NCBI RefSeq assembly: GCF_023370775.1
Contig: NZ_JAMCCQ010000002.1
Location: 186,001 to 250,000 of the forward strand
Direction of reading: 5' to 3'
DNA length: 64,000 nt
From: Marivita sp. GX14005
GTDB taxonomy: Bacteria; Pseudomonadota; Alphaproteobacteria; Rhodobacterales; Rhodobacteraceae
Shown: positions 3,021 through 13,214 of the stretch, in pieces
Layout of the letters: each line of letters starts with the position of its first letter
Numbering within the stretch: the first letter of the stretch is position 1
The notes under the pieces: generated by a model
Databases searched by the model: none
The model's input: only the letters and a program-made list of their open reading frames with translations
Told to the model about the DNA's origin: nothing
Translations under genes and position numbers: made by a program

Positions 3021-3478
3021 GTGCCACCGCCCCGCCGCTCGGAGAAGAACGCCCTGAGCAGCGCGCTGGCGTCGGCCTCGCCGACGCCATCGTAAATCTC
3101 TGGCGCGTGGTGGCATTGCGGATGCGAGAAGACCCGCGCCCCATGCGCGACGCCGCCCGATTTGGGATCGGGCGCACCATAGTAGACCCGCCGGATCCGC
3201 GCGCTTGATATGGCGCCGGCGCACATCGGGCAAGGCTCCAGCGTGACATAGAGATCATGCCCGGTCAGCCGTTCGCACCCCAGCGCCGCGCAGGCCGAAC
3301 GGATCGCCAGCATCTCCGCATGCGCGGTCGGATCGTGGTCCTGCCGCGTGCGATTGCCAGCGGCGGCGACGATACGCCCCTCAGGAGAGACGACGACCGC
3401 GCCCACCGGCACCTCGCCCCGCGCGGCGGCGGCGCGGGCCTGCTCGAGCGCGTGCGCCATATGAGTTCGAAACACCAT
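3017..3478 (-). CDS. tadA: tRNA-specific adenosine deaminase TadA
   Basis: Deaminates A34 to inosine in the tRNA-Arg(ACG) anticodon, allowing one tRNA to read CGU, CGC and CGA. Zinc ligands and catalytic residues are visible: H53-A-E55 and P-C83-P-M-C86 in the cytidine-deaminase fold. The length, 153 residues, is normal for the family. The likely substrate, tRNA-Arg with anticodon ACG, is encoded in this window at 37531. The gene is divergent from rluB-like (62 bp apart) and overlaps the rluE start by four bases. Confidence 0.95.
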
Positions 3479-3540
3479 GCGCCCCTCTTAGACTGCGCAA
3501 TGCGCTTTCCCAAGCCGGTGATTTCCACTAAGCCGCCCCC

Positions 3541-4374
3541 ATGAGCCAGCAAACGCCCCCCGGCGACCGTATCGCCAAAGTGATCGCCCGCGCCGGGATC
3601 GCCAGCCGCCGCGATGCCGAGAAGCTGATCCTTGCCGGGCGCGTGACCGTGAACGGCAAGAAGATCGACAGCGCCGCGCTGAACGTGACGCCGCAGGACC
3701 GGATCACCGTCGATGGCAAGCCGCTTGCCGCGCCGGATGCGCCGCGGCTCTGGCTCTATCACAAGCCCGCCGGTCTTGTGACGACGAACCGGGATGAGCA
3801 GGGGCGAAAGACGATCTTCGAGCAATTGCCGGACGAGATGCCGCGCGTGATGAGCGTCGGGCGGCTCGATCTGAATTCGGAAGGGCTGCTGCTGTTGACC
3901 AATGACGGCGGCATCAAACGCAAGCTGGAATTGCCCAGCACCGGCTGGCTTCGCAAATACCGCGTGCGCGTCAAGGGCGCGCCGAGCGAGCAAAGCCTTG
4001 AGCCGCTGCGCAAGGGGATCACCGTCGATGGCGAGCGATTCGGCGAGATGAATGTGACGATCGACCGCCAGCAGGGCGCGAATGCATGGCTGACGATCGG
4101 GTTGCGCGAAGGGAAGAACCGCGAAGTGCGCCGCGCCTTGGCAGCAGTTGGGCTGACCGTGAACCGGCTGATCCGCGTGTCCTATGGCCCGTTCCAGCTT
4201 GGCCAGCTCAAGCCCGGTCAGGTCGAGGAGCTGCGCCGCAAGGTCGTGCGCGATCAGCTGGGGCTCGACGAGCCGGGCGAGGCGCGCGCCGGCGGCACGG
4301 GCGGGCGCGACAAGCCGGGCCGCAAGACGCTGCGCCGCAAGCCGCGCCCCGGTTCGGGCAGACGGAGTCCCTGA
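3541..4374 (+). CDS. rluB: RluB-type 23S rRNA pseudouridine synthase
   Basis: A 277-residue enzyme with an N-terminal S4 RNA-binding domain (about residues 6-60, including IAKVIARAGIASRRDAEKLI) followed by the pseudouridine-synthase domain with catalytic aspartate in VGRLDLNSEGLLLLT. The C-terminal 45 residues are rich in Arg, Lys and Gly (RDKPGRKTLRRKPRPGSGRR), as in many RluB proteins, and probably bind rRNA. E. coli RluB modifies U2605 of 23S rRNA. Divergent from tadA. The downstream membrane-protein run starts 53 bp later and has no obvious functional link. Confidence 0.87.
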   Translation: MSQQTPPGDRIAKVIARAGIASRRDAEKLILAGRVTVNGKKIDSAALNVTPQDRITVDGKPLAAPDAPRLWLYHKPAGLVTTNRDEQGRKTIFEQLPDEMPRVMSVGRLDLNSEGLLLLTNDGGIKRKLELPSTGWLRKYRVRVKGAPSEQSLEPLRKGITVDGERFGEMNVTIDRQQGANAWLTIGLREGKNREVRRALAAVGLTVNRLIRVSYGPFQLGQLKPGQVEELRRKVVRDQLGLDEPGEARAGGTGGRDKPGRKTLRRKPRPGSGRRSP

Positions 4375-4427
4375 ACTTTCCCCCTTCGCGCCCATTTTCC
4401 GCCCCGTTTGGCGGCGAATTTGGCGCC

Positions 4428-4625
4428 ATGGTGCTGACCTTCATAACCTCGACGATCCTCGTCATTTCCGTGCTGCTCGTGGTGTCGAACCTCGGCACGG
4501 TCGCGGATGACACGGCGCGCGCGCTGCGCGGGGCGTATTTCCGCATGAGGGCGCATGGTGGTCTGGCATCCTTCGTCGCCTTCGGCGTGCTCTGGATCAC
4601 GATATTCGCACTGGGGTTCCTATGA
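4428..4625 (+). CDS. small two-TM membrane protein (65 aa), first gene of the TelA/XpaC run
   Basis: Sixty-five residues with two hydrophobic stretches, about residues 2-21 and 44-64, separated by a charged loop containing DDTARALRGAYFRMR. I recognise no family. The ATG at 4428 has only a weak ribosome site, but the end overlaps the next gene as ATGA (4622-4625), which argues that it is translated and coupled. It is the first of eight same-strand genes that appear to form an envelope-stress cluster. A longer upstream-extended frame runs through rluB and is rejected. Confidence 0.7.
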   Translation: MVLTFITSTILVISVLLVVSNLGTVADDTARALRGAYFRMRAHGGLASFVAFGVLWITIFALGFL

Positions 4626-5479
4626 TCGAAATGCAAACGGCGAATTTCGTCGATTATGACAGCAGCGCGGCTCTCGGCAAAACCGTCCCGGTGGAAAACG
4701 TGCCTGTCGGTTTCATGGTGCTGGCCTTCTGCCCGCTGATCCTGTGGCTGATGGATGGCACGGTGGCCGGCTTCGCCTCCGCGCTCGTGGTGCTCGCGCT
4801 TTTCGCCATCGGCCTGATCTGCCTGTCGGCGGGGCAAAGGGCGCATGTCGCCTATGACGCGGCCGAGATCGCCGCGCGCCCCCGGCTGCCGCTCAAACTC
4901 ATGGGCAGTTCGATCATCGCGCTTGTCGTCGGCCTTCTGGCGACCGCCAAGATCGGAACGCCGACCGTGCCGATGGTGATCGGCAGCGCAACCTTCATCC
5001 TGTGCCTTGTGTCCTTCGGCCTCGATCCGATGCGCGACAAGGGCATGGACAATCCGCTGGTGCGGCTGCGGCTGGCCAATGAGGACTTGTATCGCGCCTT
5101 CGAAACACGCTTCGATAGGCTTCTTGCGAACCTGTCCACGCTTGGCGATGACGATCTGTTCGAACGCACGCGGCTTGCGGTGGATACGGTCATGGGGCTT
5201 GTCGGAACCATCGATCTCGAATCCCGGACGTTGATGAGGATCGCGCCGACCCTGTCCAAGCTGATCCGCAAGATGGAAGCCGAGGTCGATGCCATGATCG
5301 ACGCGCAGCCGCGCGGTCTGACGGGTTTCGAGCGGCGCAAGTTCCATATCAAGATGCAGACCCTGTCCGACGCGTTCGAAGCGCGGGCGCGCCGCAGCGG
5401 CATCGCCGAGGGTCGCAACAATTTCGAGCTTCAGGCTGATCTGCTTTTCAACAGGATGCAGCGCAACCGCACGGTCTGA
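4622..5479 (+). CDS. four-TM membrane protein with XpaC-like cytoplasmic helical region
   Basis: A 285-residue protein with two hydrophobic hairpins (about residues 28-68 and 90-136), then a long alpha-helical hydrophilic tail. It shares with the protein encoded at 5653 the two connectors AYDA..(I/V)A.RP..P.KL and FG(L/I)DPMRDKG, so the two are diverged paralogues in one operon. The companion resembles XpaC/TelA-associated proteins; this copy is less typical, lacking a recognisable XpaC ending. It is coupled to the 65-aa protein by a 4-bp overlap. It probably resides in the inner membrane and may partner TelA. Function is inferred from context only. Confidence 0.72.
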   Translation: MIEMQTANFVDYDSSAALGKTVPVENVPVGFMVLAFCPLILWLMDGTVAGFASALVVLALFAIGLICLSAGQRAHVAYDAAEIAARPRLPLKLMGSSIIALVVGLLATAKIGTPTVPMVIGSATFILCLVSFGLDPMRDKGMDNPLVRLRLANEDLYRAFETRFDRLLANLSTLGDDDLFERTRLAVDTVMGLVGTIDLESRTLMRIAPTLSKLIRKMEAEVDAMIDAQPRGLTGFERRKFHIKMQTLSDAFEARARRSGIAEGRNNFELQADLLFNRMQRNRTV

Positions 5480-5558
5480 GCGGATCTGTGCCGAGTTCCC
5501 TCTAGCAAGCACTCCGAACATCCCCTAAGTTTCCAATAAGATTGGTAAAGGGGGTTCC

Positions 5559-5648
5559 ATGTCCAGTTCCGGCCTGCGGCGCCTGAGCTACGCGCTGTTG
5601 CTTGCCCTGTTGTTCGGTCTGACCACCGGCCTGTTCGGGGGGCTGTGA
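5559..5648 (+). CDS. 29-aa hydrophobic mini-protein
   Basis: A short frame starting at ATG 5559 and ending at TGA 5646-5648, four bases before the XpaC-like gene. An AAAGGGGG ribosome-binding sequence sits at 5547-5554, at good spacing. The peptide starts MSSSGLRRLSYALLLALLFG and ends LTTGLFGGL: a positively charged N-terminus, then one hydrophobic helix with glycines, as expected of a small single-pass inner-membrane protein. Without it there would be a 173-bp gap in an otherwise tightly packed operon. No family is recognised, and translation is inferred from the ribosome site and spacing. Confidence 0.55.
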   Translation: MSSSGLRRLSYALLLALLFGLTTGLFGGL

Positions 5649-5652
5649 TCCG

Positions 5653-6552
5653 ATGGCCCGGCGCTATGGCGGAAAATACAGCCCGGACGCGCCTTCCGCG
5701 CCGGATGACGAAGCCCTGGCCAAGGGCTATCGCAACGCGGTTGTCGATCCGGTCGGCGCGCGCTCGAACCTGTTGTTCATTCCGCCCGTCATCCTCGCCT
5801 TCACCTCGCTCGACGAGGGCGCGATCGGACTCGCCGCCGGGCTGCTGGGCGCGGCTGCGCTGACACTGGGCGCATGGCTCCTGCGCGACGGGTTGCGGGC
5901 CGAGGCAGCCTATGACGCGCGCAAGGTCGCGCGCCGGCCGGCCTTTCCTCGCAAGCTGGGCGCGGCAGTGTTCACCGGGATCGGGTGCGCGCTTGCGGCC
6001 TGGGTCAACGAGCCGGGATTGCTCGCTCCGGCCATTTTCGGCGGCGCAGGGGCCGCGCTGCATATAGGTGCTTTCGGCATCGACCCGATGCGCGACAAGG
6101 GGTTCGAGGGCGTCGACACGTTCCAGCAGGACCGCGTCGCCCGCGCCGTGGAGGAGGCGGAAAGCCACCTCTCGACCATGCGCGATGCCATCGCGCGGGC
6201 AGGGGACCGCCGATTGATCGCCCGTGTCGAGCAGTTCCAGACCACCGCCCGCGATCTGTTCCGCACGGTCGAGGACGACCCGCGCGATCTGACCGCTGCG
6301 CGCAAATATCTTGTCGTCTATCTGCTGGGTGCACGCGATGCGACCGTCAAGTTCGCCGATGTCTACGCCCGCACCCGCGATCCACAGGCGCGGGCCGATT
6401 ACGAGGCGCTGCTTGACGATCTGGAGCAGAACTTCTCTGCCCGCACGCGCAGGATGCTGCTCGACGACCGATCCGATCTGACGGTCGAAATCGATGTGCT
6501 GCGGGATCGTTTGCAGCGTGAGGGCGTTCACATCGAACGCAAGGGCAATTGA
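5653..6552 (+). CDS. XpaC-like (5-bromo-4-chloroindolyl phosphate hydrolysis) membrane protein
   Basis: A 299-residue protein with two hydrophobic hairpins (about residues 38-75 and 100-140) and a helical C-terminal half resembling XpaC. XpaC proteins are frequently encoded beside TelA, as here with 28 bp between genes. The name comes from an old Bacillus X-phos phenotype; the biochemical role is not established. It shares FGIDPMRDKG and the AYDARKVARRP connector with the protein encoded at 4622. The first 30 residues are polar and rich in Pro, Asp and Ala. It probably sits at the inner membrane and acts with TelA. Confidence 0.82.
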   Translation: MARRYGGKYSPDAPSAPDDEALAKGYRNAVVDPVGARSNLLFIPPVILAFTSLDEGAIGLAAGLLGAAALTLGAWLLRDGLRAEAAYDARKVARRPAFPRKLGAAVFTGIGCALAAWVNEPGLLAPAIFGGAGAALHIGAFGIDPMRDKGFEGVDTFQQDRVARAVEEAESHLSTMRDAIARAGDRRLIARVEQFQTTARDLFRTVEDDPRDLTAARKYLVVYLLGARDATVKFADVYARTRDPQARADYEALLDDLEQNFSARTRRMLLDDRSDLTVEIDVLRDRLQREGVHIERKGN

Positions 6553-6580
6553 CAGCGAAACGGATTTGAAGGGGATAACC

Positions 6581-7780
6581 ATGTCAGAAACAGTGCGCGC
6601 CAAGGCGCAGGAAACGCTTGCGATGGTCGATGAGGTCAATGCCGTGATCCTGCCCGAGCCCAAGGACGCCAAGGCGGTGATCCCGCTCGATCAGGCCGAT
6701 CCCGTTGTCAGCGATGAAATCCGCGCCCGGATGGACGAGATTGACGTGACCGATACGCAATCCATCGTGTCCTTCGGATCGAATGCGCAGGCCGAATTGC
6801 AGGAAATCAGCCAGTCAATGCTGGCCGATGTGCGCAACAAGGATGTGGGCCCTGCGGGCGACAGCCTGCGCGGCATTGTCAGCACCATTCGCGGCTTTTC
6901 GGTCTCCGAGCTCGATGTGCGGCGCGAACGGTCCTGGTGGGAAAAGCTGATCGGCCGCGCGGCGCCCTTCGCCAAGTTCACCGCCCGCTTCGAAGAGGTG
7001 CAGGGCCAGATCGACCGCATCACCGACGATCTACTCAAGCACGAGCATACGCTGCTCAAGGACATCAAATCGCTCGATCTGCTCTACGAAAAGACGCTGC
7101 AATTCTACGATGAACTCGCGCTCTACATCGCCGCCGGCGAAGCCAAGATCGCCGAAATCAACGAGACGGAAATTCCCGCCAAGGAAGCACAGGTCAAGAC
7201 TGCGCCGGAGGGCGAGCAGGTGATGCTGGCGCAGGAATTGCGCGATCTGCGCGCCGCGCGCGACGATCTGGAGCGCCGGGTGCACGACCTCAAGCTGACG
7301 CGGCAGGTCACGATGCAATCGCTTCCGTCGATCCGGCTCGTGCAGGAAAACGACAAGTCGCTGGTCACCAAGATCAACTCCACGCTGGTGAACACCGTGC
7401 CTCTTTGGGAAACCCAACTGGCGCAGGCGGTCACGATCCAGCGCTCTGCCGAAGCGGCCGCCGCCGTGCGCGATGCGAACGATCTGACCAACGAGCTTCT
7501 GACTTCGAACGCGAAGAACCTGCGCGACAGCAACAAGCTGATCCGCGAGGAAATGGAGCGCGGCGTCTTCGATATCGAGGCGGTCAAACAGGCCAATGCC
7601 GATCTGATCGGCACGATCCAGGAAAGCCTGCAGATCGCCGATGAAGGCAAGGCCCGCCGCGCCGCAGCCGAAGAGGAACTTCAAAAGATGGAAGCCGAAT
7701 TGCGCGACACGCTGGCCTCCGCCAAGGCGCGCGCCGACGGCGTTGGCGATACGGCTGCCGGCTCGGTCCCGAAAACCTGA
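6581..7780 (+). CDS. telA: TelA/KlaA-family toxic anion resistance protein
   Basis: A 399-residue, almost wholly alpha-helical cytoplasmic protein. The central block from SWWEKLIGRAAPFAKFTARF through LYEKTLQFYDELALYIAAGE, then LTRQVTMQSLPSIRLVQ and VNTVPLWETQLAQAV, matches the TelA (plasmid RK2 KlaA) family linked with tellurite and cell-envelope stress resistance. Two coiled-coil stretches are evident (about residues 185-250 and 330-385). I chose ATG 6581, preceded by GAAGGGGA; the upstream extension to 6494 lies inside the preceding gene. A DUF2927 lipoprotein gene follows after 6 bp. What TelA does biochemically is unknown. Confidence 0.92.
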   Translation: MSETVRAKAQETLAMVDEVNAVILPEPKDAKAVIPLDQADPVVSDEIRARMDEIDVTDTQSIVSFGSNAQAELQEISQSMLADVRNKDVGPAGDSLRGIVSTIRGFSVSELDVRRERSWWEKLIGRAAPFAKFTARFEEVQGQIDRITDDLLKHEHTLLKDIKSLDLLYEKTLQFYDELALYIAAGEAKIAEINETEIPAKEAQVKTAPEGEQVMLAQELRDLRAARDDLERRVHDLKLTRQVTMQSLPSIRLVQENDKSLVTKINSTLVNTVPLWETQLAQAVTIQRSAEAAAAVRDANDLTNELLTSNAKNLRDSNKLIREEMERGVFDIEAVKQANADLIGTIQESLQIADEGKARRAAAEEELQKMEAELRDTLASAKARADGVGDTAAGSVPKT

Positions 7781-7786
7781 GACGAC

Positions 7787-8752
7787 ATGCGGCGGCATCG
7801 GCATATCCTCTGGGCCGGTCTTTCGGCCCTCGCCTTGGCGGCATGCGACCCGCTGGGCGGTGACGGACCGGCCGGGGTCAAGCCGCAGGCCCGGCCCGAC
7901 AGGCCCGCCGCCGCACCCGCACCCAAGCCGAAATTGCCATCGGACGCCGCCTTGCGCCTTGCGCGCTATTATTCCGAGGTCCAGTCCGATCTGCTGGCGC
8001 GCGGCCTGCTGCGCACCGATGGCGGCGGGCCGGATACGCCCTTCACCGAATCCATGCTGGTGCGCAATTTCGAACGTATCGCGCTGGCCGAGGAATATAC
8101 CCGCGGCGGCGGGCTTGAGCCGTCGAGCGGCGATCTGAACGAGATCAAGAAATGGACCGGCCCGGTGCGGATCGGCGTGATCTTCGGCGACACCGTGCCC
8201 GACAAGGACCGCGCAACAGACCGCCGGGCGCTCGTTTCCTATACCGCCCGTTTGCGCCGGATCACCGGCCATCCGATTTCCTTCGTGCCGCGCGGTGCGA
8301 ATTTTCACGTTCTCGTCATGGGCGAGGACGACAAGGACGAGCTGCGCCGCACGCTCGATCGCATCGCGCCGGGGATGGAGCCGTCGAGCAGGGCGATCTT
8401 CGCCAACCTGCCGCGCGCGATTCATTGCCTCGTAGTGGCCTTCGCCGATAGTGCCGATGGCAGTTCCTACCGGCAGGCCGTCGCACTCGTGCGTGCCGAG
8501 CATCCCGAACTGACCCGCCGCGCCTGCTATCACGAGGAACTGGCGCAGGGGCTGGGCCTCGCCAATGACGATCAGAACGCGCGCCCCTCGATCTTCAACG
8601 ATGACGAGGAATTCGCCCTTCTGACAAGCCACGACGAATTGCTGCTCAAGATGCTTTACGATCCGCGCCTGCGTCCCGGCATGACCGCCGAGGAGGCCGG
8701 CCCCATCATCCGAATCCTAGCAAGCGAGGCTCTGGGCAGCGGCCCGAGCTGA
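7787..8752 (+). CDS. DUF2927 lipoprotein with metzincin-like degenerate motif
   Basis: A 321-residue secreted lipoprotein: signal peptide with Arg/His-rich start, hydrophobic core and lipobox LALAAC (C20 lipidated), followed by a Pro/Ala-rich spacer (about residues 30-55). The C-terminal half has the DUF2927 landmarks CYHEELAQGLGLAND, SIFNDDEEFALLT and LLLKMLYDPRLRPGM. The first lines up with the metzincin HExxHxxGxxH site but reads E250-E251-x-x-Q254-x-x-G257-x-x-N260-D261: the general-base glutamate is kept while the three histidine ligands are gone. It may be an altered or inactive protease exposed to the periplasm. Six bases separate it from telA. Confidence 0.85.
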   Translation: MRRHRHILWAGLSALALAACDPLGGDGPAGVKPQARPDRPAAAPAPKPKLPSDAALRLARYYSEVQSDLLARGLLRTDGGGPDTPFTESMLVRNFERIALAEEYTRGGGLEPSSGDLNEIKKWTGPVRIGVIFGDTVPDKDRATDRRALVSYTARLRRITGHPISFVPRGANFHVLVMGEDDKDELRRTLDRIAPGMEPSSRAIFANLPRAIHCLVVAFADSADGSSYRQAVALVRAEHPELTRRACYHEELAQGLGLANDDQNARPSIFNDDEEFALLTSHDELLLKMLYDPRLRPGMTAEEAGPIIRILASEALGSGPS

Positions 8753-8767
8753 TCCGACGGAGGTTAC

Positions 8768-9886
8768 ATGCCCATTTTCGATTTTCTCAGCGGCCAGTTC
8801 ATCGACGTCATCGAATGGACCGACAACACGCGCGACACCATGGTCTGGCGGTTCGAGCGCGAGGGCCACGAGATCAAATACGGCGCCAAGCTGACGGTGC
8901 GCGAAGGGCAGGCGGCGGTGTTCGTGCATGAGGGACAATTGGCGGATGTGTTCACACCGGGGCTCTACATGCTCGAGACGAACAACATGCCGATCATGAC
9001 CAGCCTTCAGCACTGGGATCACGGCTTCCGCTCGCCGTTCAAATCCGAGATTTACTACGTCAATACGACGCGCTTTCAGGATCTCAAATGGGGCACCAAG
9101 AACCCGGTGATCTGCCGCGACCCCGAATTCGGACCCGTCCGCCTGCGCGCCTTCGGCACCTATTCGGTGCGCGTGACCGATCCGGCGAAATTCCTGGTCG
9201 AGATCGTCGGCACGGATGGCGAATTCACGATGGACGAGATCAGCTTCCAGATCCGCAACATCATCGTGCAGGAATTTTCCCGCACCATCGCCCGCGCCGG
9301 GATTCCGGTTCTCGACATGGCGGCGAACACGCGCGAGCTGGGCCGGCTTCTGGCCAAGGAGATCGCGCCTACGCTGGCCGAATACGGGCTGGAGCTCCCC
9401 GAGCTTTACATCGAGAACATCTCGCTGCCGCCCGCCGTCGAACAGGTGCTCGACAAGCGCTCGTCCATGGGTGTGATCGGAAATCTCAATGAATACATGC
9501 AGTTCCAGGCCGCCGAGGCGCTGGGGCAGGAGGGCGCGGGGGCCGGCGCGATCCAGGCCGGGCTTGGTGCCGGGCTGGGCATGCAGATCGGGCAGGCGGC
9601 CGCGCAATCGGGGCCATGGGGCGCGATCCCGTCCGCTGCCGCCCCCACATCACGCCAGGTGCCGCCGCCCCCGCCGCCGATCGAGCATGTCTGGCACGTT
9701 GCCGAGAACGGCGCGGCACGGGGGCCGTTTTCCAAGGCGGCACTGGGGCGGATGGCGCGCGAGGGCAATCTGAGCCGCGAAACCTATGTCTGGACGCCGG
9801 GCCAGGATGGCTGGATGCGCGCCGAGGATGTGCGCGAGCTGGCGCAGCTTTTCACCGTGCTGCCGCCGCCCCCGCCGGACGCCTAG
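8768..9886 (+). CDS. SPFH-domain (YdjI-like) protein with C-terminal GYF_2 domain
   Basis: A 372-residue protein. Residues about 1-250 form a YdjI-type SPFH/Band-7 region of the kind often misnamed virion core protein, including VRLRAFGTYSVRVTDPAKFL. A glycine/alanine-rich linker (GQEGAGAGAIQAGLGAGLGM) and a PPPPPP stretch lead to a GYF_2 module (WHVAENGAARGPFSKAAL ... TYVWTPGQDGW) that probably binds proline-rich partners; the protein ends in another proline run. SPFH proteins scaffold at membranes. A clear GACGGAGG ribosome site precedes ATG 8768. In Bacillus, ydjI sits with the zinc-ribbon gene ydjG and a PspA-type gene; here the zinc-ribbon gene follows and TelA precedes. Confidence 0.88.
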   Translation: MPIFDFLSGQFIDVIEWTDNTRDTMVWRFEREGHEIKYGAKLTVREGQAAVFVHEGQLADVFTPGLYMLETNNMPIMTSLQHWDHGFRSPFKSEIYYVNTTRFQDLKWGTKNPVICRDPEFGPVRLRAFGTYSVRVTDPAKFLVEIVGTDGEFTMDEISFQIRNIIVQEFSRTIARAGIPVLDMAANTRELGRLLAKEIAPTLAEYGLELPELYIENISLPPAVEQVLDKRSSMGVIGNLNEYMQFQAAEALGQEGAGAGAIQAGLGAGLGMQIGQAAAQSGPWGAIPSAAAPTSRQVPPPPPPIEHVWHVAENGAARGPFSKAALGRMAREGNLSRETYVWTPGQDGWMRAEDVRELAQLFTVLPPPPPDA

Positions 9887-9903
9887 GGCTGGCGCCGCAT
9901 ATT

Positions 9904-9929
9904 CGAGTATTTGAAACGAGAAGAAGCAG
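9904..9929 (+). repeat. dispersed intergenic motif, copy B
   Basis: The motif CGAGTATTTGAAACGAGAAG followed by AAGCAG lies 18 bp after the SPFH stop and 13 bp before the start of the zinc-ribbon gene, so it occupies the only gap in the 3' part of this operon. The bases after it may supply the weak ribosome site of the next gene. Confidence 0.7.
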
Positions 9930-9941
9930 GGGACACGAGAT

Positions 9942-11054
9942 TTGTCCGAGGATGTGCTGACGGCTCCGGTGGAAGAGCATCGTTTTCCCTGCGACAATTG
10001 CGGCGCCGATTTCCGTTACGATCCCGCGCGCGGCCTTCTGCGTTGCGATCACTGCGGCAATACGAGCGAGATCGCCGGGGCGGGACCGTGGGGAAACACG
10101 GCACTGCGCGAAATCTCCTTCGAGGAGGGCATCGCCGGGCGCCTCTCCGAGCAGGAGATGGAGGAAACCCGCGTCTCGCATTGCCCCAACTGCGCCGCGC
10201 AGGTCGAGTTCGAACCGGGCGTTCATGCCGCGGAATGCCCGTTCTGCGCGACGCCGGTGGTTGCCGATACCGGAGTGAGCCGGCATATCAAACCGAAGGG
10301 TCTCCTGCCTTTCGCGCTCGATGAAGCGCGCGCGCGCGATGCGATGAAGGATTGGCTCGGCCGGCTCTGGTTCGCGCCCAACGGGCTCAAGGACTATGCG
10401 CGCAAGGGGCGGCGCATGACCGGCGTTTATGTGCCCTACTGGACCTTCGATGCCGATACCGCATCGAGCTATCGAGGAGAGCGCGGCACGGTCTATTACG
10501 AAACGCGCCGCGTGCAGCGGGGCGGCAAGACCCAGACCGTCCGCGTCGCCAAGGTGCGCTGGCGCCCGGCATCGGGCCGCGTGGCGCGGTTTTTCGATGA
10601 CGTGCTGGTGCTGGCCTCGCGCTCCTTGCCCAAGCGCTATACCGACGCGCTGGAGCCCTGGGATCTGTCTGCGATGGAGCCCTATCATCCCGAGTTCCTC
10701 GCCGGGTTCCGGGCCGAGGCTTACGGCGTCGAGCTCGAAGAGGGATTCGCGGAAGCGCGGGCCTATATGGACCGGATCATCACCCGCGACGTCAAGTTCG
10801 ACATCGGTGGCGACCGCCAGCGCGTTCACGCGATCGACACGCGCGTGTCGGACGTGACCTTCAAGCACATTCTTCTGCCGGTCTGGCTCGCCGCCTACAA
10901 GTATCGCGGCAAGAGCTATCGTTTCGTCGTCAACGGACGCACCGGCGCCGTGCAGGGAGAACGCCCCTGGTCGAAATGGAAACTGGCTTTCGCGATTCTG
11001 ACAGGGTTGATCGCCGCGGCGCTGGTTGGCTATGTCGCGGCGACCACCCAGTGA
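9942..11054 (+). CDS. double zinc-ribbon membrane protein (YdjG/TFIIB-ribbon-like)
   Basis: A 370-residue protein with two N-terminal four-cysteine zinc ribbons, PCDNC...LRCDHC (about residues 16-41) and SHCPNC...AECPFC (about 81-106). A beta-rich middle follows (VYVPYWTFDADTASSYRGERG, then VRWRPASGRVARFFDDVLVLAS), and a single C-terminal transmembrane helix (about 347-366, FAILTGLIAAALVGYVAA). The architecture matches YdjG-type proteins, sometimes mislabelled PriA. TTG 9942 is the start used here; GTG 9954 is an alternative. It closes the TelA/XpaC/SPFH run and converges with fnrL with no intergenic space. Confidence 0.8.
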   Translation: MSEDVLTAPVEEHRFPCDNCGADFRYDPARGLLRCDHCGNTSEIAGAGPWGNTALREISFEEGIAGRLSEQEMEETRVSHCPNCAAQVEFEPGVHAAECPFCATPVVADTGVSRHIKPKGLLPFALDEARARDAMKDWLGRLWFAPNGLKDYARKGRRMTGVYVPYWTFDADTASSYRGERGTVYYETRRVQRGGKTQTVRVAKVRWRPASGRVARFFDDVLVLASRSLPKRYTDALEPWDLSAMEPYHPEFLAGFRAEAYGVELEEGFAEARAYMDRIITRDVKFDIGGDRQRVHAIDTRVSDVTFKHILLPVWLAAYKYRGKSYRFVVNGRTGAVQGERPWSKWKLAFAILTGLIAAALVGYVAATTQ

Positions 11055-11798
11055 TCAGATCAGCATCCCGCCATCGGTGTCGTCTCCCGCTTCTTCGAGC
11101 AGGGCGGTCATGTCCGGCACGGTGATGTGCCGCTTGCCTTCGAGCGAGATGATCCCGTCTTTCTTGAGCGCCGAGACCTGACGCGACACCGTCTCCAGCG
11201 TCAGGCCGAGGTAATCGGCCATCGCCTCGCGCGTAAGCGGCAGGGCGAAGGTGACAGGCCCGCCCAGCCCGGCAAGGTTCAGCGTCGCATCACGCCGCGC
11301 GATGATCGACAGCAGCGACGCGATCTTCTCGCGTGCGGTCTTGCGGCCCAGAACGAGCATCCATTCGCGCGCGGCATCGAGCTCGTCGAGCGTCATCTGC
11401 AGCAGGCGCTGGGCGATATGCGGGGTGCGTTCCATCATCTCCTCGAAGGGCGCCTTGCGGAAACAGCACATCACCATGTCGGTCGTCGCAACCACGTCAT
11501 AGGCCGCCGCCTCGCGGCCCGGCCGGCCGACGAAATCGCTCGGCAGCAGAAGCCCCACCATCTGCGTGCGCCCGTCCTCCATCGTCTGCGTCAGCGTCGC
11601 GATGCCGGAGACCACCGAGCCGACGAAATCCATCCGGTCGCCCGACCAGATCACGGTCTGTCCGGCCTCGAACCGGCGATAATACTTGATGTCTTCCAGA
11701 CGTTCCAATTCATCGGAATCGCAGCGCGCACAGACGGCACGGTGCCGGATGGGGCAATCGCCGCATTGCTGGTTGACGGACAAGTCGATCTGGCTCAC
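11055..11798 (-). CDS. fnrL: FnrL, oxygen-responsive CRP/FNR-family regulator
   Basis: A 247-residue transcription factor. Cysteines C12, C15, C23 and C26 near the N-terminus, with C111/C112 in the effector domain, can supply the four ligands of an oxygen-labile [4Fe-4S] cluster. The C-terminal helix-turn-helix contains LTLETVSRQVSALKKDG, with the E..SR recognition pattern of FNR proteins. I chose GTG 11798, which has AAAGGAA six bases upstream; the longer frame to 12503 runs through hemN. It is divergent from hemN, and the FNR box at 11811-11824 lies 12 bp upstream of its own start, pointing to autoregulation. Confidence 0.95.
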   Translation of the reverse strand: MSQIDLSVNQQCGDCPIRHRAVCARCDSDELERLEDIKYYRRFEAGQTVIWSGDRMDFVGSVVSGIATLTQTMEDGRTQMVGLLLPSDFVGRPGREAAAYDVVATTDMVMCCFRKAPFEEMMERTPHIAQRLLQMTLDELDAAREWMLVLGRKTAREKIASLLSIIARRDATLNLAGLGGPVTFALPLTREAMADYLGLTLETVSRQVSALKKDGIISLEGKRHITVPDMTALLEEAGDDTDGGMLI

Positions 11799-11810
11799 GG
11801 GAAGTTCCTT

Positions 11811-11824
11811 TTGATCTGGGTCAA
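11811..11824. promoter_or_regulatory. FNR/FnrL box TTGATCTGGGTCAA
   Basis: TTGAT-CTGG-GTCAA matches the FNR consensus TTGAT-N4-ATCAA at 9 of 10 positions. It lies between divergent fnrL and hemN. Its centre (11817.5) is about 40 bp upstream of the predicted hemN transcription start, the class II activating position, and only 19 bp from the fnrL start codon. Confidence 0.85.
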
Positions 11825-11844
11825 GGCTCTGCCTTGCAGACGCC

Positions 11845-11850
11845 GATAAT
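11845..11850 (+). promoter_or_regulatory. candidate -10 element of hemN
   Basis: GATAAT at 11845-11850 lies 20 bp after the FNR box. Normal geometry would put the transcript start at about 11857-11859, at the hemN ATG, so the message would be leaderless or nearly so. No good Shine-Dalgarno sequence precedes that ATG. Confidence 0.5.
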
Positions 11851-11858
11851 GTAGGTCC

Positions 11859-13214
11859 ATGGCAGACAGAACACAACTTTCCCGCTTGGGACTTTTCGAC
11901 GCGAAGGTGCCTCGTTACACGAGCTATCCGACGTCTCCGCATTTCAAGAACGATGTGACGCCGGGCGATTTCCGGAACTGGATCGAGGCGATTCCCGAAG
12001 GCTCGGAAATCTCGCTTTATCTGCATGTTCCGTTCTGCCGGCGGCTGTGCTGGTTCTGCGCCTGCCGCACGCAGGGCACCTCCAGCGATGCACCCGTTAC
12101 CGCCTATGTCGAGACGCTGAAGGACGAGCTTGCCATGCTCAAGCGGCACCTGCCGCGTGGCGTGCGCCTCTCGCGTCTGCATTGGGGCGGCGGCACGCCG
12201 ACGCTTCTGTCCCCCGATAACATGCGCGATCTGTCCGCCACCGTCCGTGAGGTGGCCGATTTCGCCGATCATTACGAATTTTCCGTCGAAATCGATCCGA
12301 ACGAGATCGACGAGGCGAGGCTCGACGCGCTCTTTCAGGGCGGAATGAACCGCGCCTCCATCGGGGTGCAGGATTTCGATCCCGAGATTCAAAAGACCAT
12401 CGGGCGCGAGCAAAGCTTCGAGATCACCAAGCGCGCGGTCGACATGATTCGCGATCGCGGCATCCAGTCGCTCAATGCCGATATCCTCTACGGCCTGCCG
12501 CACCAGACGCAGGAAAAGATCGTCGATTCGGTGCAGAAGCTTCTGTCGCTTTCGCCAGACCGCGTCGCCCTATACGGCTATGCGCATGTGCCGTGGATGG
12601 CCAAGCGCCAGCAGCTGATTCCCTCCGACGCGCTGCCGCGCCCCGACGACCGGCTCGATCTGTTCGAGGCGGCGCGCAAGCTCTTCGTCTGGGACAATTA
12701 CCAGGAGATCGGCATCGACCATTTCGCGGTAAAGGATGACGGCCTGTCCATCGCCGCGCGCAACGGCACGCTGCGACGGAATTTCCAAGGCTATACCGAC
12801 GATCAGGCAGAGGTTCTCATCGGGATCGGCGCCTCCTCGATCTCGCGTTTCCCGCAGGGCTACGCGCAGAACGCGCCGGCAACGTCCGTCCATACAAAGG
12901 CGATTCGCGCGAACGCGTTTTCCACCGTGCGCGGCCATGCTTTCACCGCCGAGGACAAGCTGCGCGGGCGGATGATCGAGATGGTCATGTGCGATTTCCG
13001 CGTCGATCTGCCCGAACTGGTGCGCGATCACGGCGTCACCGAAGCCGAGGTGCAGGCCATCTTCAAACGCGTGAATTCCGAGTTCGAGAACCTGCTCGCG
13101 GTGGAGGAGGACTGTCTTTATGTTCCGGTCGAAGCGCGACCGCTCACCCGCCTGATCGCCCGCAGCTTCGATGCCTACGAGCTGTCCAAGGCGGGGCACA
13201 GCTCGGCGATCTAA
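11859..13214 (+). CDS. hemN: oxygen-independent coproporphyrinogen III oxidase HemN
   Basis: A radical SAM enzyme that decarboxylates coproporphyrinogen III without oxygen. The 451-residue product has the cluster motif C60-x3-C64-x2-C67-x-C69 (CRRLCWFCAC), exactly the HemN pattern, and HWGGGTPTLLSPDNM for SAM binding. The length matches genuine HemN rather than the shorter HemW. It is divergent from fnrL and lies behind an FNR box, so it is very probably induced by FnrL under low oxygen, complementing hemF near 2 kb. Its stop overlaps the converging yejF stop by four bases. Confidence 0.96.
   Translation: MADRTQLSRLGLFDAKVPRYTSYPTSPHFKNDVTPGDFRNWIEAIPEGSEISLYLHVPFCRRLCWFCACRTQGTSSDAPVTAYVETLKDELAMLKRHLPRGVRLSRLHWGGGTPTLLSPDNMRDLSATVREVADFADHYEFSVEIDPNEIDEARLDALFQGGMNRASIGVQDFDPEIQKTIGREQSFEITKRAVDMIRDRGIQSLNADILYGLPHQTQEKIVDSVQKLLSLSPDRVALYGYAHVPWMAKRQQLIPSDALPRPDDRLDLFEAARKLFVWDNYQEIGIDHFAVKDDGLSIAARNGTLRRNFQGYTDDQAEVLIGIGASSISRFPQGYAQNAPATSVHTKAIRANAFSTVRGHAFTAEDKLRGRMIEMVMCDFRVDLPELVRDHGVTEAEVQAIFKRVNSEFENLLAVEEDCLYVPVEARPLTRLIARSFDAYELSKAGHSSAI

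Follow-up and report, generated by a model that had tools for sequence, protein, structure and literature searches.

Described systems and the locus in comparison

In Bacillus subtilis, the genes xpaC-yaaN and pspA-ydjG-ydjH-ydjI form separate operons belonging to the sigma-W genes, the former as core members and the latter, together with yceC-H, as secondary ones (PMC3498285). The proteins YdjG, YdjH and YdjI are mutually dependent; membrane localisation of YdjI requires YdjG and YdjH, and YdjI recruits PspA (PMC8581546). YdjG is composed of two zinc ribbons and a transmembrane (TM) segment, and YdjH carries a TPM domain (PMC11237479). Pairs with XpaC followed directly by TelA are also known as lmo1966-lmo1967 in Listeria and llmg_1115-telA1 in Lactococcus lactis, and in these three hosts they stand under sigma-W or envelope-stress control (PMC3498285, PMC12791056, PMC3139573). 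Overproduction of membrane proteins raises XpaC and TelA in L. lactis (PMC3139573), xpaC is up in a liaR mutant of Enterococcus faecium (PMC10269926), and a review-type source places TelA among the sub-membrane structures of Ter systems (PMC7824862). The present analysis concerns a run of eight genes at positions 4428-11054 of a 64,000-nucleotide stretch of Marivita sp. GX14005 DNA (the window; G000:C4:186001-250000 of a 3.45-Mb genome with relatives in the Rhodobacteraceae such as Marivita, Roseivivax and Sulfitobacter), in which an XpaC-TelA module and an SPFH-zinc-ribbon module stand together.

All eight open reading frames (ORFs) lie on one strand, as the preliminary description of this DNA had observed, and are joined from 5' to 3' by a 4-bp overlap and gaps of 79, 4, 28, 6, 15 and 55 bp. 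Among the seven longer proteins (the 29-residue peptide being outside the scan), five receive a Pfam assignment, with E-values of 4e-29 for Halogen_Hydrol/XpaC, 1e-106 for TelA, 5e-62 for DUF2927, 7e-102 for Band_7_1 (PF13421, a family whose search also matches B. subtilis) and 6e-20 for GYF_2. The PF10112 protein directly precedes the PF05816 protein, as in the three pairs named above; those are two-gene units, whereas here the pair is joined to the SPFH-ribbon module, a pseudo-matrixin lipoprotein and a TM peptide. The run and pspA-ydjGHI have in common (i) a YdjI-type Band_7_1 SPFH protein; (ii) a two-ribbon, one-TM partner; (iii) putatively, an envelope-stress setting (PMC8581546, PMC11237479, PMC3498285). 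In contrast to pspA-ydjGHI, the run (i) is without PspA; (ii) has an SPFH protein ending in GYF_2 instead of a zinc ribbon; (iii) has no TPM-domain protein of the YdjH type among its seven scanned proteins; (iv) contains in addition XpaC, TelA, DUF2927 and a micropeptide. TelA is also shared with yceCDEFGH of B. subtilis and other Ter clusters, whereas the TerC and TerD-type proteins of Ter systems are absent from the proteins of the run in the Pfam scan.

The most economical account is that stress modules which are separate and co-regulated in Bacillus have been merged here in one operon, without PspA and the TPM protein, and that this operon further has a pseudo-matrixin lipoprotein and a micropeptide, and an SPFH protein with a GYF tail. 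No description of such a merged operon was found in the open-access papers searched. The two modules very probably form one functional unit, and by analogy with the described systems we lean, by a small measure, towards a role of this unit as a PspA-free envelope- or membrane-stress complex.

Conservation, co-occurrence and joint loss

TelA (PF05816) was matched in 147 of the 149 genomes of the family and in 19 of 190 genomes sampled from the class (E 0.001). Gene order was followed in 70 family loci of about 19 kb around TelA, one genome per genus and covering 70 of 72 genera (TelA is missing from g11 and lies near a contig end in g16). With profile models built from those same loci, XpaC was found upstream of TelA in 68, DUF2927 downstream in 66, SPFH in 66, the zinc ribbon in 62 and RsuA in 59. 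The best 80 named loci of a longer list, hence close relatives, contain TelA in 80 cases, DUF2927 in 80, XpaC in 79, SPFH in 79 and the ribbon downstream in 73, some of the gaps being contig ends. As the order is kept in the 70 and the 80 loci, the run is beyond chance; the preliminary description had held that rare adjacency elsewhere would speak against a single system, and adjacency in the family is near-universal. Outside the family, XpaC-TelA-SPFH-ribbon without DUF2927 occurs in four of 30 sampled stretches (L074, L075, L076, L084), and TelA with XpaC but without SPFH in 10 others.

The conserved unit consists of a cis-element, the micropeptide, XpaC, TelA, DUF2927, SPFH-GYF and the zinc-ribbon protein, and begins in the 79-bp gap before position 5559 (Table 1). 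The first two genes, sp1 and XL1 (4428-5479), are lineage-specific additions, seen in 16 of the 80 named loci. The set of eight genes in the preliminary description is thus to be corrected by these two, whereas its division into an XpaC/TelA and an SPFH/zinc-ribbon module is supported.

Table 1. Features of the run in the window
Feature	Position	Strand	Evidence
sp1, 65-aa protein with two hydrophobic segments, lineage-specific addition	4428..4625	+	ORF; 3/70 family loci, 16/80 named loci
XL1, XpaC-like paralogue of 285 aa, four TM segments predicted, lineage-specific addition	4622..5479	+	Pairwise comparison with XpaC
cis-element, promoter-like, TTCCC(C/T)CTAG(C/T)AA...CYTARnTT	5496..5531	+	Conservation across loci
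29-aa single-TM micropeptide MSSSGLRRLSYALLLALLFGLTTGLFGGL, opens the conserved unit	5559..5648	+	143/148 loci; profile and codon-position tests
XpaC (PF10112) membrane protein	5653..6552	+	Pfam; 68/70 family loci
TelA (PF05816), cytosolic, long-helix	6581..7780	+	Pfam; 147/149 family genomes
DUF2927 lipoprotein, lipobox Cys20, predicted matrixin fold, zinc ligands replaced	7787..8752	+	Pfam, motif, predicted fold
SPFH (Band_7_1), C-terminal GYF_2 between two polyproline runs	8768..9886	+	Pfam; homologue alignment
Two-ribbon (CxxC-CxxC, zinc) protein, TM segment at the C-terminus, TTG start, YdjG-like layout	9942..11054	+	Cysteine conservation; 62/70 family loci

A strong SPFH match is present in 145 of the 149 family genomes, and the four others are G011, G106, G085 and G081. 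In G011 and G106, TelA, XpaC, the ribbon and strong SPFH are all absent; in G085, XpaC, SPFH and the ribbon are gone and a short divergent TelA-like ORF remains beside RsuA (L046). These joint losses concern three genera. Among 187 genomes of the class outside the family, TelA is found in 13 (E<1e-30) and SPFH in 6 (E<1e-70); all six genomes with strong SPFH also have TelA (hypergeometric P 3e-8, the genomes being one evenly drawn sample that is not phylogenetically independent), and in four of the six the genes are adjacent.

The alternative that XpaC-TelA-DUF2927 and SPFH-ribbon are two independent modules, neighbours by inherited gene order only, is considered unlikely. Joint loss in three genera, with RsuA left behind in G085, argues against it, as do the association of SPFH with TelA outside the family even where the genes are apart, the gaps of 6-55 bp and the single cis-element ahead of the whole unit. 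In its favour, split runs break at one seam, between XpaC-TelA and SPFH-ribbon, with the halves 14 kb apart in G110 and on different contigs in G124, and the corresponding modules are separate operons in B. subtilis. The same splits, and the joint loss of SPFH and ribbon in G081, also count towards the single unit. The ribbon gene is relocated in G021 and G007, and XpaC in G006.

Several further observations weigh against the reading of the run as one envelope-stress unit. SPFH and the ribbon are lost together in G081, which keeps XpaC-TelA-DUF2927, and SPFH and TelA are not adjacent in G295 and G160. RsuA, which has no evident link to the other genes, adjoins them in 59 of the 70 loci, so that the synteny may partly reflect family-wide conservation of gene order, as independent modules would have it. 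DUF2927 is not indispensable, since it is absent from the four versions of the run outside the family and from the family loci L010 and L017, which keep the rest; moreover, Foldseek alone gave no match for it below E 0.001. Lastly, in 13 of the 70 loci RsuA and xpaC are separated by a gene for TerC, a manganese/metal protein (PF03741, 4.6e-36 for one tested), an arrangement equally compatible with a role in metal handling or secretion.

Components of the conserved unit

The micropeptide is preserved as a TM-like ORF of 20-45 residues ending a few bases from xpaC in 143 of the 148 XpaC-bearing loci, with candidates picked by hydrophobicity and none obtained in L055, L142, L145, L165 and L195. 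Its consensus is approximately MSxTGLQKxAYVLLIVLLFGVTTGWLGGL. A profile made from 67 family loci gave 25.7 to 62.1 bits for 76 held-out peptides, whereas 379 short hydrophobic ORFs from these loci did not exceed 22.2 bits; beyond the family, the best scores were 5.7 bits (L075) and 4.3 bits (L074), within the range of decoys. Changes between nearest pairs number 394/201/811 at codon positions 1/2/3, a pattern which indicates that the gene is translated. Taken as a whole, the comparisons argue that the 29-residue micropeptide is a coding gene and a conserved core part of the unit. It was unnamed in the gene list of the preliminary description, which counted two small membrane proteins as added parts: the 29-residue peptide has proved to be a core component, and the 65-residue sp1 a lineage-specific addition. 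A second small membrane peptide, with a start like M.RLILFLLLF, stands ahead of the 29-residue one in L016, L031, L037, L045, L068 and others (five loci clustered together, more seen by eye).

Of 133 non-redundant loci, 49 carry the dyad CTAG-N18-CCTA in the 200 nt before the micropeptide, whereas shuffled sequences gave no more than 14. The full cis-element reads TTCCCCCTAGCAAG then CCTAAGTTT and is usually located about 57-63 nt ahead of the micropeptide start codon; in loci with a further small gene in between, the distance is about 190-215 nt. In the window it includes a -10-like TAAGTT at 5526-5531, with TAGCAA 17 nt upstream. Scored by matrix against 2,959 control segments, 92 of 143 loci lie above the 99th percentile and 76 above the best control; as 54 non-redundant sites from these loci served to train the matrix, the figure of 92 is partly circular and the genome-wide exact search is fairer. 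The latter, applied to 149 whole genomes, yielded 17 matches in as many genomes, all of them preceding the TelA match by 1.2-1.3 kb (reversed-pattern control: one match). A slightly looser pattern gave one exact match in each of the 17 same-genus genomes examined, the window genome included. Since the exact matches come once per genome and always ahead of TelA, the element looks private to the operon. Its place is downstream of the sp1/XL1 pair and ahead of the conserved unit; another promoter therefore probably serves sp1 and XL1.

With up to one mismatch allowed in 61 genomes, a second site was obtained in 12 of the 17 same-genus genomes; reversed-pattern controls are similar in number at that laxity, so a regulon around the element is only a lead. 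This relative, TACCCCCTAGnCG...CCTAGGTT, lies near position 1500 of the same-genus loci L235-L240 and, in five of six loci translated, about 128 nt ahead of a 222-residue outer-membrane-protein-like gene; the window genome has no such second site at up to one mismatch. Among known promoter types, RpoH-, RpoE-, sigma-70- and general-stress-like patterns occur in the upstream 200 nt at the level of shuffles, and a scan for a consensus sigma-70 promoter finds none at the site of the element.

The DUF2927 lipoprotein is predicted to be a degenerate protein of the matrixin type. The matrixin fold, as in matrix metalloproteases and karilysin, is shared according to its predicted model; in matrixins the motif HExxHxxGxxH supplies the ligands H-H-H, whereas the operon branch has E-Q-N instead. 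In the run these residues are E250-E251-x-x-Q254-x-x-G257-x-x-N260; EExxQ is present in 67 of 67 operon DUF2927 proteins and HExxH in none, so the degenerate protease motif reported earlier is confirmed and is now placed by the predicted fold. DUF2927, for which no mention was found in the open-access papers searched, can thereby be given a predicted fold and has probably descended from metalloproteases. The distant members L260, L262, L265 and L271 have an apparently intact HExxH zinc site, and the Pfam family therefore seems to include active metalloproteases. A second DUF2927 protein of the window genome, outside the operon (G000:C4:746428-747027, L268), has the degenerate motif EELAQALGPLND, and a local expansion with seven DUF2927 matches in about 20 kb was seen at G306:C1:46652-66787.

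In the SPFH homologues, the GYF-like C-terminal domain occurs in 69 of 71 and proline pairs of the tail in 71 of 71. Binding of proline runs by the GYF domain, as put forward in the preliminary description, would be a conjecture beyond this conserved presence. The ribbon protein has only sub-threshold Pfam zinc-ribbon matches; its eight ribbon cysteines (8/8) and the C-terminal hydrophobic segment are kept in 67 of 67 aligned homologues, a layout like that of YdjG as described (PMC11237479). A b561-like gene is inserted between SPFH and the ribbon in 15 of the 70 family loci (1.4e-9 for one tested).

The absence of PspA from the run, stated in the preliminary description, extends to the whole window genome, in which PF04012 has no match; 101 of the 149 family genomes are likewise without one, and in the 48 with a match none lies within 20 kb of TelA, the nearest being at about 20.6 kb (G073). 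The suggestion of the preliminary description that TelA could take the role of membrane effector in place of PspA gains no support from its predicted model, which is of middling confidence; its fold matches, also with regard to the ESCRT-III helical fold, fall short of significance.

Proposed function and further observations

The unit would encode a single complex for envelope surveillance and membrane stabilisation without PspA. As its outer-surface part, the DUF2927 lipoprotein would bind periplasmic polypeptide exposed by envelope damage; having lost its zinc ligands, it would bind rather than cut. XpaC and the single-TM micropeptide may serve as the inner-membrane anchor for TelA, which would be arranged beneath the membrane in long helical rods. 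For the SPFH protein, oligomerisation at the membrane is proposed, with the TM ribbon protein as a tether comparable to YdjG/YdjH for YdjI in Bacillus; through the GYF domain and proline runs, SPFH subunits could be cross-linked with one another or with partners. Such a complex might protect the membrane from pore-forming peptides, alkali or oxyanions. A more specific version is tentative and rather doubtful as a whole: a dedicated PspA-independent machine in Rhodobacteraceae, with the dead matrix-metalloprotease-fold lipoprotein as periplasmic sensor, the 29-residue TM peptide as essential XpaC-TelA coupling subunit, SPFH-GYF as membrane scaffold and the operon-private cis-element answering a dedicated regulator. 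The question bears on inner-membrane upkeep in alphaproteobacteria without PspA, the operon being near-universal in a large, ecologically weighty family.

For decades, genes found in this operon have been annotated as tellurite resistance, without a mechanism. That the run is an oxyanion resistance operon, as the name TelA implies and as TerC beside xpaC in some relatives would suit, is very unlikely: a special resistance trait would not predict retention in nearly all genomes of a largely marine family, and we know of no part of the lipoprotein, SPFH or ribbon proteins in tellurite reduction or export. The telA of Rhodobacter sphaeroides, from the same gene and bacterial families, is counted among chromosomal tellurite determinants (review PMC6955997). 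A telA-like mutant of Listeria is reported to be 2-fold more susceptible to tellurite, but the effect is larger for nisin, with a 4-fold increase (PMC12791056, citing Collins 2010).

A helper for secretion or metalation of exported proteins at the Sec translocon, with metal supplied by TerC-type proteins in some genera, is quite unlikely. TerC proteins of B. subtilis metalate exoenzymes during secretion (PMC10550928), the response of XpaC and TelA in L. lactis would suit such a role, and a matrixin-fold lipoprotein could hold unfolded polypeptide; however, the run is without TerC in most genera, that of the window included, and no translocon gene is among the conserved neighbours.

Of the two lineage-specific genes, each present in 3 of the 70 family loci, XL1 has no Pfam match, shows 26% identity to XpaC of the same run (pairwise E 5e-15), and its profile is matched by XpaC of other Alphaproteobacteria, which identifies it as a divergent XpaC paralogue. 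The run is flanked upstream by RsuA and downstream, on the opposite strand, by a Fnr/Crp-like regulator named by eye from its sequence. Rfam gives nothing at the gathering threshold across 3400-12000. A 21-base repeat, TTCGAGTATTTNNAACGAGAA, occurs twice (2434-2454 and 9902-9922), in short intergenic stretches near gene ends, where shuffles expect none.

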